A DNA stretch of 64,000 nucleotides from positions 1 through 64,000 of the forward strand of contig JARCRU010000111.1 of the NCBI GenBank assembly GCA_029850535.1, written 5' to 3'. The notes below the pieces were generated by a model. It had not been told where the DNA came from, made no database searches, and saw only the letters and a program-made list of their open reading frames with translations. Positions 41,767 to 49,031 of this stretch are shown here, piece after piece (positions within the stretch are counted from its first letter, which is position 1; the number at the start of each line of letters is the position of its first letter). Both the position numbers and the translations under genes were made by a program. The stretch is from Actinomycetota bacterium (GTDB lineage Bacteria > Actinomycetota > Acidimicrobiia > Acidimicrobiales > RAAP-2).

Positions 41767-42224
41767 GAGTGACCTCGAGATCGCCTCGTCGACCATCGGT
41801 CAAGGCGGGTCTCTAGAACAGCGCGACGGCTGTACGTGAGCCACGTGAACAAGTAGTCCCGTCCCTCGTAGCTGCACCGCTTCTCGCCGAAGCCCCGGCC
41901 AACGTGGCCCCACGTACTTCGAGGAAACCGCGAGTGCTGGGCACGCGGTGAGCGCTGCGTCGCCCCTCGGCGCACCGTGCTCCGCAGTGTCGTTCTCGAC
42001 CAATGAGGGCGCCGTCACGAATGGTCTACGCGTCGCACGTACCAACGAACGCACGACGACAGATAGGAGCTATCTTCACACTCACCCACTGGCATGACGA
42101 ATAAAGGTGGCGCTCAGCACCTATTCCTGCTAGCGTGGCATTCGCTGTCTGTGCCGCATTTCGCGGTGGAGCCGATTCGACTGTGACATATCGAGTTGGG
42201 CTCATCTCAACTTGTAGGAGTCAT
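41767..42224. other. Long non-coding stretch before the helicase gene
   Basis: About 460 bases with no convincing gene. It contains a perfect hairpin AGATAG-GAG-CTATCT at 42061-42075 and a GGTG...CACC symmetry near 42105. Cold-shock helicase genes often have long structured leaders, so part of this may be the 5' untranslated region of the DEAD-box gene. That is an inference; no known riboswitch class was recognised. Confidence 0.4.
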
Positions 42225-43820
42225 ATGTCTATGTCCTTTGCCGACCTCGGTGTCCCGTCGAACCTCGTGGAGCGTCTCGCTGCACGCGGCATCACCGAAG
42301 CCTTCCCTATCCAAGAGGCCGCGCTCCCCGACGCTCTCGCCGGTCGCGACGTCGTGGGCAAGGCCGCTACGGGCTCGGGCAAGACCCTCGCTTTTGGCCT
42401 GCCACTCATGGCCCGACTCGGCAAGGCCCGTCCCCGCAAGCCCCTGGGCCTCGTTCTCGTACCCACGCGTGAGCTCGCCGCGCAGGTGCAGAAGGAACTG
42501 GCCAACTTGACCGACGACCGTGGTCGTCGCGTCATCTGCATCTACGGCGGCACGTCCTACAACGTCGCGCGCAAGGCTCTGAACTTCGGCGTCGACGTCG
42601 TCGTCGCCTGCCCGGGTCGCCTCGAGGACATGCTCGAGCAGGGTGCCTTCGACCTCTCCGAGATCACGACCGTCATCGTTGACGAAGCAGACCGTATGGC
42701 CGACATGGGATTTTTGCCCGCGGTGCGACGCATCATGAGTGCGACGCCTCGTGACCGTCACGTGATGCTGTTTTCCGCGACCATGGGCCCCGACGTCAAG
42801 TCTCTCGTCAAAGAATTCACGCACGACGCCATCGTCCACGACGTCGTCGGCGAAGAAGCGCCCAGTGACGTCGACCACTTCTTCTGGCGCGTACCACGTG
42901 ACCAGCGCCCCCAATACACCGCCGACATCATCGCGCAGTACGAGCGCGGTTTGGTCTTCACCCGTACCAAGCACGGCGCGGACCGTCTCGCGCGTCAGCT
43001 CGAAGAGCGCGGTATCAGTGCGGTCCCCCTGCACGGTGACCGCACGCAGGCTCAACGTGAGCGTGCGCTGCGATCGGTGAAGAGTGGCCAGATCCAGGTG
43101 CTGGTCGCCACTGATGTCGCCGCCCGAGGAATCCACATCGATCTCTTGCCCGTGGTCGTGCACTACGACCCACCGGCCGCGGCCAACGACTACCTGCACC
43201 GTTCGGGTCGCACGGGCCGCGCGGGTGCCACCGGCGCGGTCATTTCACTCGTCGGCGAGGACGCCATGGGCCAGGTGAAGCGTCTACAGCGCGCCCTGGG
43301 GATTCCCATGTCAATTGAGAGTCGCGAAGACGCCCCGGCCATCCGCCTCGGCGCCGTCGACGATGGCGCGGCGGCTGAACGCATCGACGATCGAGGCGGC
43401 AAGGGTCGATCCGAGCGTCCGGCATCGCGCGAGCGCAGCTTCGCCGACCGTGGTGAGCGCGCGCCGCGTTCTTTCGAGCGTCCCGAGCGCAGTTTCTCGG
43501 ACCGCAACGAGCGTGCCCCGCGTCCCGAGCGCAACTTCGCCGACCGTGGTGAGCGCAAGTTCACCGGTTCGGCTTCAAAGCCGGGCAACGGTGAGGCCGT
43601 GGTGAGTTTCTTCAACGACTCCAAGGGCTTTGGTTTCGCGAGCGACTCCAAGGGCGATGATCTCTTCATCCACTTCTCGAGCATCCAGGGCGACGGATTC
43701 AAGTCTCTCGCTCAGGGTCAGAAGATCACTTTCGAAGAGGCTCAGGGTCCCAAGGGACGAGAAGCTCGTAACGTTCGCGTGGTCGGCGGCGCCGCTGGCG
43801 GTCGCCAACGTCGCTACTAG
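42225..43820 (+). CDS. DEAD-box RNA helicase with a C-terminal cold-shock domain
   Basis: A 531-residue fusion. The helicase core (about 1-370) has the Q motif (FPIQEAALP), ATGSGKT near 50, PTRELAAQV, DEAD near 153, FSATM, and HRSGRTGRAG. A linker (about 400-455) repeats R-S-F-x-D-R-x-E-R-A-P-R units. Residues about 456-522 form a cold-shock domain with RNP1 KGFGFASDSKGDD and RNP2 LFIHFSSI. The protein should unwind RNA and bind single strands with the same chain, useful in cold or ribosome assembly. ATG 42225 has GTAGGAG upstream. Confidence 0.94.
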   Translation: MSMSFADLGVPSNLVERLAARGITEAFPIQEAALPDALAGRDVVGKAATGSGKTLAFGLPLMARLGKARPRKPLGLVLVPTRELAAQVQKELANLTDDRGRRVICIYGGTSYNVARKALNFGVDVVVACPGRLEDMLEQGAFDLSEITTVIVDEADRMADMGFLPAVRRIMSATPRDRHVMLFSATMGPDVKSLVKEFTHDAIVHDVVGEEAPSDVDHFFWRVPRDQRPQYTADIIAQYERGLVFTRTKHGADRLARQLEERGISAVPLHGDRTQAQRERALRSVKSGQIQVLVATDVAARGIHIDLLPVVVHYDPPAAANDYLHRSGRTGRAGATGAVISLVGEDAMGQVKRLQRALGIPMSIESREDAPAIRLGAVDDGAAAERIDDRGGKGRSERPASRERSFADRGERAPRSFERPERSFSDRNERAPRPERNFADRGERKFTGSASKPGNGEAVVSFFNDSKGFGFASDSKGDDLFIHFSSIQGDGFKSLAQGQKITFEEAQGPKGREARNVRVVGGAAGGRQRRY

Positions 43821-43831
43821 GCTCGGGTCCC

Positions 43832-44203
43832 ATGTCTGAAAAACCACTGGTCGAACCGCACCTCGGCGAAGCTCCCACGGAGTTGATCGTCGAGGACCTC
43901 ATCGAGGGAACTGGCGCCGCCGCGCAGGCTGGTCAAACCGCCGTCGTCCACTACGTGGGCGTCGGCGTGACCAGCGGCGAAGAATTCGACGCCTCGTGGA
44001 ATCGCAACGAACCCTTCGCCTTCCCCCTCGGAGCCGGCTACGTGATCAAAGGTTGGGACGAGGGCGTGCAGGGAATGAAGATCGGCGGACGCCGCCGATT
44101 AGTGATTCCTTCGCACCTGGGCTACGGAGACCGCGGCGCCGGTGGCGTCATCGCCCCCGGCGAGACGCTCATCTTCGTCGTGGACCTGCTCGAACTTCGC
44201 TAG
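43832..44203 (+). CDS. FKBP-type peptidyl-prolyl isomerase
   Basis: A 123-residue single FKBP domain. The core is TAVVHYVGVG, GEEFDASWNRNEPFAFPLG, VIKGWDEGVQGMKIGGRRRLVIP and LIFVVDLLEL. The active-site Asp, Trp and Tyr positions are kept. There is no signal peptide, so it acts in the cytoplasm on proline-limited folding. It lies 11 bases after the helicase and likely shares its transcript; four bases separate it from the convergent LON-domain gene. Confidence 0.95.
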   Translation: MSEKPLVEPHLGEAPTELIVEDLIEGTGAAAQAGQTAVVHYVGVGVTSGEEFDASWNRNEPFAFPLGAGYVIKGWDEGVQGMKIGGRRRLVIPSHLGYGDRGAGGVIAPGETLIFVVDLLELR

Positions 44204-48629: not shown

Positions 48630-48976
48630 GGGGATGATTGGTTTCGACGTCTGACGTTGAGGTGAGAGAAGCGAGCCGTGGTCTCCGGAACCACGTAAAA
48701 GAGCCGGAAACAAAAATAAACGCCAAGCCTCAGCTTGTGCTTGCTGCCTAGGCAGCAACGTTCACCTGTGCCCAGTCCTGCGGTGCAGATTATGAGCGTC
48801 AAAACAGTGGGACTTACCTTCAACACTCGTTAGTGGTGACGTTGGGACACTTCAGCTAACTACGGATCACCACTGGTGCACACAGTGGGGGTGATCTCGA
48901 CAATTCCCTGTGCGCTGCGCTCGGAGAAGGATCACTAAGAAGCAGGCGGACCTGGGTTCGATTCCCAGCATCTCCA
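48630..48976 (+). ncRNA. ssrA: tmRNA (ssrA)
   Basis: The 5' end GGGGATGATTGGTTTCGACG and the 3' end with T-arm GGGTTCGATTCCC and CATCTCC-A pair as an alanyl-tRNA-like acceptor. The reading frame after ATAAAC gives GCC AAG CCT CAG CTT GTG CTT GCT GCC TAG, so the tag is probably (A)AKPQLVLAA. It ends in LAA, as most degradation tags do. The resume codon is inferred from position and could be one codon earlier. CCA is not encoded. Several pseudoknot stems are visible 3' of the tag. Confidence 0.95.
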
Positions 48977-48978
48977 CG
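48968..48978. repeat. Left copy of the 11-bp putative attachment-site repeat (ssrA 3' end)
   Basis: GCATCTCCACG spans the last acceptor-stem bases of tmRNA and two bases beyond. The same 11 bases recur at 51219-51229. ssrA 3' ends are well-known integration targets, and the DNA between holds toxin-antitoxin genes, so this may be an attL. Confidence 0.5.
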
Positions 48979-49031
48979 CATGAGACCGCAAGAGAACTAT
49001 GTCCACGATACCTTGGTGAGTTACCGGGGCA

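Follow-up and report, generated by a model that had tools for sequence, protein, structure and literature searches.

The window analyzed here, the whole stretch of 64,000 nucleotides, carries at 42225-43820 (+) an intact open reading frame which begins with ATG and encodes a single 531 aa protein (Table 1). Three Pfam domains lie above their curated cut-offs in the product: DEAD at residues 28-192 (7.6e-46), Helicase_C at residues 235-334 (1.2e-26), and a cold-shock domain (CSD) at residues 458-519 (2e-19; 69.6 bits vs. a cut-off of 27). The union of a DEAD-box helicase and a CSD in one chain, as put forward in the original prediction, is therefore real. The helicase core contains FPIQ, ATGSGKT, PTRELA, DEAD, SAT, ATDVAARG, and HRSGRTGR, which we take to be motifs Q, I, Ia, II (DEAD), III, V, and VI, and these motifs together with both RecA-like domains place it among the DEAD-box helicases. 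In the C-terminal domain, KGFGF and LFIHF are presumably RNP1 and RNP2, and with the Pfam match they place it among the CSDs.

An AlphaFold2 model built from 27 aligned sequences (mean pLDDT 80.4) is confident for both RecA domains and for a five-strand barrel at residues 456-519; residues 376-413 and 415-452, in the linker, fall below a pLDDT of 50. The joining linker is thus predicted to be disordered and is Arg-rich, as had been proposed. The start at 42225 is probably right, since orthologues L009 and L013 have GTG at this position and no ATG in place of 42231, and the second ATG at 42231 looks internal. A possible frameshift error at about 43590 had also been raised; no sign of it is seen, and because fused relatives from other assemblies keep an open frame here as well, a frameshift or assembly artefact is excluded.

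Table 1. Features of the fusion locus in window coordinates
Feature	Position	Strand	Evidence
CTGCTAGCGTGGC block, possible -10 region of promoter	42127..42139	+	CTGCTA part conserved
Structured 5' leader RNA (model R1), ~97 nt, through start codon	42146..42242	+	conservation, covariation
Hairpin P1 (42153-42157 pairs with 42163-42167)	42153..42167	+	covariation
Outer stem P2 (42179-42187 pairs with 42220-42225 and 42227-42229)	42179..42229	+	covariation
Hairpin P3 (42192-42200 pairs with 42206-42214), just 5' of Shine-Dalgarno	42192..42214	+	covariation
Shine-Dalgarno-like AGGAG, mostly in P3-P2 loop	42216..42220	+	sequence
DEAD-box helicase/cold-shock domain fusion gene	42225..43820	+	ORF, Pfam
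DEAD domain (RecA-like domain 1)	42306..42800	+	Pfam PF00270
Helicase_C domain (RecA-like domain 2)	42927..43226	+	Pfam PF00271
Arg-rich disordered linker, three R-x-F-x-D-R-x-E-R units	43350..43589	+	pLDDT, unit count
Cold-shock domain (CSD), RNP1 and RNP2 motifs	43596..43781	+	Pfam PF00313, modelled five-strand barrel
FKBP-type prolyl isomerase gene, 11 nt downstream of fusion	43832..44203	+	PF00254, 8.4e-31

Genome Setting

The genome is a 2.48-Mb draft in 146 contigs (93.6% complete) with three CSD matches, namely the fusion and two free-standing genes; the fusion therefore does not stand in for separate Csps. A second helicase (C16, L085) has an equal DEAD score and is 44% identical in the core, and no CSD was found in its tail. 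The fusion gene follows an ABC-2 permease gene and a ClpP gene, both on the reverse strand, and a tRNA-Leu gene, and is followed by the FKBP gene on its own strand, which is a probable operon partner. Fifteen relatives (L004-L011, L013-L016, and L019-L021) likewise have FKBP after their fusion gene, whereas L017 and L018 lack it there; FKBP also lies downstream of the unfused helicases of L028, L031, L033, and L041; the sequences of L012 and L068 end too soon. Beyond FKBP, on the other strand, are genes for a Lon substrate-binding domain, Ham1/RdgB, RNase PH, and a PLP-dependent enzyme which we take to be probably CysK, and then come SmpB and tmRNA. None of these neighbors was found beside L022-L026. 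The tmRNA gene itself (48630-48979) lies just downstream of SmpB and encodes the tag peptide AKPQLVLAA.

Conservation and Spread of the Fusion

Relatives were taken as the best 80 loci from a scan of 84,980 species genomes, a sample that leans to close kin and consists of metagenome-assembled genomes. A CSD model built in this analysis places the domain in the helicase tail of 26 of these loci, and Pfam confirmed it in all 27 proteins (the window and 26 relatives), in which the RNP1/RNP2 columns G468, G470, F471, F481, and H483 are invariant. In the close relative L012 the contig stops short of the position of the CSD. All nine genomes of the same genus have the fusion. Two other genera of the family are represented by three genomes; the helicase is unfused in G106 and G118, and the one in G047 is of the paralogue type.

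Across the class, 108 of 148 genomes have a helicase match at 1e-60, and one helicase, the best match, was read in 87 of them. A C-terminal CSD is present in 25 (13 genera, 9 families), an RRM in the same place in 17 (14 genera, 6 families), and neither in 45; these class-wide CSD calls rest on the model built here, Pfam having been run on the 27 proteins. Five of the 45 with neither domain (L202, L204, L209, L210, and L211) group with the paralogue L085 on the tree and are thus uninformative on the orthologue. Outside the class but inside the phylum, the models built here found no fused CSD or RRM in 38 helicase loci (18 + 20, picked by rank, several from one genome). A free Csp gene lies within a few hundred bases of the helicase in ten of the 38, nine times on the same strand, and these ten come from only three genera in a small ranked sample with no control gene set. 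The same-strand cases include L233, L242, L245, L251, and L255-L259, mostly from one large-genome genus.

In comparisons of close relatives, the rate of change in the CSD is about as low as in the core. Between the window and L004, dN/dS is 0.027 for the core, 0.025 for the CSD, and 0.131 for the linker, which is about five times higher; against L005 it is 0.032 for the core and 0.036 for the CSD, these ratios being rough because some pairs have a dS close to 1 or saturated. In distant relatives the CSD diverges faster, with 44.6% identity vs. 65.4% for the core in L020 and 70.8% vs. 81.0% in L016.

The R-x-F-x-D-R-x-E-R unit occurs exactly three times in the linker (43434-43460, 43488-43514, and 43530-43556), which is far above chance for its composition, as shuffling the 80 linker residues 200,000 times never gave two or more copies. 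No tandem repeat was found in the DNA of the linker, so the units are a pattern at the level of the protein. The repeated units of the original prediction are thus real; however, they are not conserved in fused relatives, with even the shorter form R.F.DR present in only seven of the 51 rows with a fusion, which represent 45 distinct proteins. Fused-protein linkers are between 20 and 176 residues long, and their Arg content lies between 0 and 29%. Net charge is +4 in the window protein, and the medians over the 51 rows are +7 and 22% Arg. The linkers of L169, L102, and L047 have only 20-30 residues and little or no Arg, and those of L169 and L191 are net acidic. As the unit is unconserved and linker length and Arg content vary, a special function based on the unit appears unlikely.

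Exchange of the C-Terminal Tail

Pfam RRM_1 was found in nine of 50 relatives without a CSD. In these loci (L027, L034, L035, L040, L042, L048, L050, L053, and L060) an RRM tail takes the place of the CSD, and they fall into a single clade that also holds 17 other RRM rows. A quick tree built from 168 helicase cores (51 CSD rows, of which 45 are distinct, 26 RRM, 88 with neither, and three cut off) recovers the RRM rows as one clade with an SH-aLRT of 99, and the CSD needs eight changes on it, at least four of which are forced by well-supported branches. A more careful tree of 77 hand-chosen rows gives one change for the RRM (support 100/98) and seven for the CSD, again with at least four forced. 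The window falls in a clade of 28 rows, 27 with a CSD and one cut off. L153, without a CSD, is nested in a fused clade.

A single origin of the CSD fusion is unsupported by the helicase tree, the CSD rows forming one group in none of 200 bootstrap trees of the careful set, and the fusion apparently arose by several separate events, to the extent that change counts on the helicase tree, which do not tell gains of the CSD from losses, allow. In a tree of CSDs, which is too short to decide on a single origin, several fused CSDs lie among free Csps with weak support and only one change is forced. With the RRM in one clade and the CSD changing seven to eight times, the CSD behaves as an exchanged module. 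Free Csps near unfused helicases, and the RRM found where other relatives have the CSD, suggest that these helicases have a common need of an accessory RNA-binding domain.

A Structured Leader at the Start Codon

Upstream of the fusion gene a block of about 100 nt hardly changes in alignment. The 79 nt before the start are 91-97.5% identical to six relatives, vs. 43-53% at four-fold sites of the same gene; the DNA at -260 to -120, at 24-42% identity, is a weaker yardstick as some relatives have a tRNA gene there. Just 5' of the leader, nearly every one of the 11 rows that extend so far (the window and ten relatives) retains CTGCTA. A sigma-70 scan found no promoter consensus upstream of the fusion, so that the role of the CTGCTAGCGTGGC block as a -10 region is a possible one suggested by its conservation.

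The plan of the leader is P1, followed by P2 enclosing P3, with most of the Shine-Dalgarno in a loop and two bases of the start codon, A and G, within P2. At 37 C the predicted unpaired probability is 0.64-0.85 for AGGA and 0.15 for the final G. Folded alone, the leader of the window is modestly better than its shuffles (z -1.67; 12 of 200 as good). Among minimum-energy folds of 25 leaders (23 fused, two unfused), 19 pair the start codon with a base over 20 nt upstream and enclose a hairpin between the two, a count made loosely and with no shuffled control; the folds of L017, L020, L023, L024, L045, and L129 lack this pairing.

Covariation is stronger evidence for the leader structure than single-sequence folding. 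When 26 leaders are aligned to the model, 92.4% of cells are paired vs. 81.6% in shuffles, 18 of 23 pairs are changed on both sides vs. 6.0, and the covariation score is 0.309 vs. 0.152. As this fitted alignment follows the structure and its sources were chosen for matching, an unfitted MAFFT alignment of 20 leaders (19 distinct) serves as the fairer test: 92.5% of cells are paired vs. 88.0% in shuffles, double changes are found in 10 of 23 pairs vs. 2.5, and slid controls drop to 27-49% paired. By element, P1 has 100% of cells paired and double changes in four of five pairs (two of five unfitted), P2 has 86-89% and eight of nine (six of nine unfitted), and P3 has 92.9% and six of nine (two of nine unfitted). 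These margins are to be read knowing that the structure was taken from the window's own fold and that related rows can partly exceed such shuffles even without structure.

In the genome of the window, R1 has one clear place (E 4.1e-25) and a next best match at E 0.13, and the idea of the same leader before the free csp genes was rejected on this result. Under stricter filters, R1 has nine matches at E up to 0.01 in the 148 class genomes, eight of them in genomes of the same genus and each at the start of the fused gene. The ninth, in G117 (E 0.0034), is probably a chance match; its value is similar to that of the correctly placed G055 (0.0030). In 90 sources, 88 of which were chosen for holding a helicase or its relatives, 30 of 31 matches at E up to 1 lie at a helicase start. 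Matches beyond the set from which R1 was built include those of L008, L022 (1.7e-5), L020/L021/L128 (0.0013), and L024 (0.0015), with weak ones in L023, L025, and L030, and R1 has no match at the helicase start of the fused L026 and L136/G067, the latter of the window's own genus. By eye, a similar hairpin is seen beside the Shine-Dalgarno of the unfused L045, L058, L064, L066, and L193; R1 has no match at this position in any of the five, and the leader was rejected for them.

No Rfam 15 family matches the leader at E up to 5 (42050-42300), and a search of 15 loci of other clades with Rfam returned tRNAs only. Two other leaders were noted in relatives. A different block, strongly conserved in sequence and with majority CGGTTGGACCGCCTCTTCGGCCGA, precedes RRM-type helicases (L027:1815-1948, L048:3047-3180, and 16 further loci of the RRM clade), where covariation was found in 0 of 12 pairs. 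A second CSD clade may have another hairpin-like leader, on weak evidence from six sequences, with majority GTCTCGGG...GAGAC (L047:3900-4012, L139:1400-1512, L143, L169, L102, and L043), and one of 15 pairs covaries.

Relation to Known Helicases and Cold-Shock Systems

The helicase was originally predicted to be CsdA-type, and this is ruled out: the DbpA RNA-binding domain is absent from the Pfam matches of the protein at E up to 0.01, and the helicase lies under the curated cut-off of each of the best 25 of 50 NCBIfam families. Its nearest systems are instead RhlE, CshA, and Hera, with which it shares the DEAD-box core and motifs. Hera (4kbf) is the top solved match, at 2.6e-81 by sequence and 1.3e-37 by fold, and structures of CshA and DbpA also rank high. 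Membership in the RhlE and CshA subfamilies is not indicated, as the protein is below the NCBIfam cut-offs for RhlE (326 bits vs. 743), RhlE2 (329.9 vs. 925), and CshA, and unlike RhlE, CshA, and Hera its C-terminal RNA-binding domain is a CSD of the OB fold. With CsdA/DeaD and DbpA it shares the plan of a core, a tail, and a C-terminal RNA-binding domain, and differs from them in having no DbpA RNA-binding domain among its Pfam matches; CsdA is linked to cold (PMC8190605). The complete CSD with RNP1 and RNP2 is shared with the CspA family; however, it is here part of a larger enzyme and not a free protein of ~70 residues, and it falls below the NCBIfam cut-offs for free-standing Csps (CspE 71.8 vs. 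120, CspA 58.2 vs. 130). A core plus C-terminal RNA-binding domain is an already known plan.

Of the original prediction's concern that the fusion might be both widespread and characterized, the first part holds in that the fusion recurs across the class. As for the second, no description of a DEAD-box/CSD fusion was found among the open-licence PMC papers listed, a set that does not cover the Lopez-Ramirez 2011 survey of bacterial DEAD-box proteins, and the portions seen of PMC10459675, PMC8190605, PMC7074383, PMC12787238, and PMC9312465 mention no helicase fusion of the CSD type. For the leader, the nearest comparison is the thermosensor leader of cspA, a gene linked to cold whose mRNA adopts an open and a closed conformer (PMC9947658); unlike it, the fusion leader is short and three-stemmed and has no Rfam match at E up to 5.

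Proposed Function

The clearing of RNA structure in the cold, which stabilizes such structure, is generally regarded as joint work of helicases and cold-shock proteins. DEAD-box enzymes open short duplexes locally, and CSDs bind exposed single strands, usually at short motifs and with little sequence choice. The fusion protein is considered a fairly probable cold-adaptation RNA remodeller, with helicase and CSD acting in cis and translation probably restrained by its own leader. The RhlE/CshA-like core would open short RNA helices using ATP, and the flexible basic linker would tether an OB-fold domain of the CspA type. This domain would anchor the enzyme to single-stranded RNA and prevent separated strands from pairing again, so that helicase and RNA chaperone would act together on one transcript or one pre-ribosomal RNA. 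Demand for the enzyme would peak when cold stabilizes RNA structure. As the leader pairs the start codon in P2, translation should rise once P2 is opened, whether through refolding in the cold, by the ribosome, or by the enzyme, and more enzyme would be made when structured RNA accumulates. The domain content, the conservation of the fusion, the constraint on the CSD among close relatives, and the covarying leader were observed; beyond these, we infer enzymatic activity, strand capture, a role in the cold, and regulation by the leader. Counted against this explanation are the two remaining free-standing Csps, the 45 of 87 class helicases with neither domain, the faster divergence of the CSD in distant relatives, the predicted start-codon pairing that hardly varies with temperature, the modest fold of the window leader by itself, and the poorly conserved linker. 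Precedents in two papers make a link to cold and self-control plausible: Caulobacter rhlE is cold-induced mainly post-transcriptionally (PMC5472812), and in E. coli the closed form of cspA mRNA is translated more in response to CspA (PMC9947658). The leader is perhaps controlled by the enzyme itself.

The C-terminal domains of DbpA and Hera bind RNA and serve in affinity or targeting. It is possible, if rather doubtful, that the CSD likewise only raises affinity or targets the helicase to one fixed substrate, e.g., an rRNA site, with cold being irrelevant. The two free-standing Csps that remain in the genome would allow the CSD to add affinity only, Hera and DbpA are among the nearest solved relatives, and the RRM in place of the CSD in a sister clade fits a generic tether; the weak sequence choice usual for CSDs argues against a fixed target, and free Csps near some unfused relatives suggest that Csp activity itself is wanted. 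It is very improbable that a chance gene fusion left the CSD as a mere passenger that does little. Its absence from many relatives, including L153 inside a fused clade, and its faster divergence than the core at a distance, as in L020, would fit a passenger, but the core-like constraint among close relatives, the RNP residues invariant in 27 of 27 proteins, and the fusion in nine of nine genus genomes with several separate occurrences elsewhere would not. A linker that is disordered, basic, and Arg-rich might also drive condensates with the CSD as a client-binding module; this is unlikely, as several fused proteins have linkers of 20-30 residues poor in or devoid of Arg, two linkers (L169 and L191) are net acidic, and the unit is unconserved.

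For the leader, a serious contender, though held at somewhat below even chance, is that it is the target of another regulator (an RNA-binding protein, a small RNA, or a ligand) and is not linked to temperature. The support for a covarying leader with the start codon in a stem points to no particular effector. Folding in silico at 4 to 45 C keeps the start-codon A and G in pairs, and the predicted pairing changes little, which leaves a simple melting thermometer unsupported and suits such a regulator. Against it, the one clear copy of the leader in the genome stands before the fusion gene, and eight of nine matches in the class genomes are at the start of a fused gene; both fit self-control without showing it. 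Returning to the cold-adaptation remodeller, its most elaborate form would be a one-gene cold-response loop, in which a CSD-bearing helicase opens or closes its own start-codon-pairing leader and the tail is repeatedly exchanged in the class, which is offered as a tentative and speculative extension.

Cooperation of helicase and Csp is hard to test when the two are separate, whereas here they are tied together, and the CSD, RRM, or bare tail on one core offers natural comparisons. The covarying leader is a defined, testable regulatory RNA candidate with no Rfam 15 match. One fused relative has an extra free Csp gene (L169:2377-2589) ~150 nt downstream of the fused helicase on the same strand.
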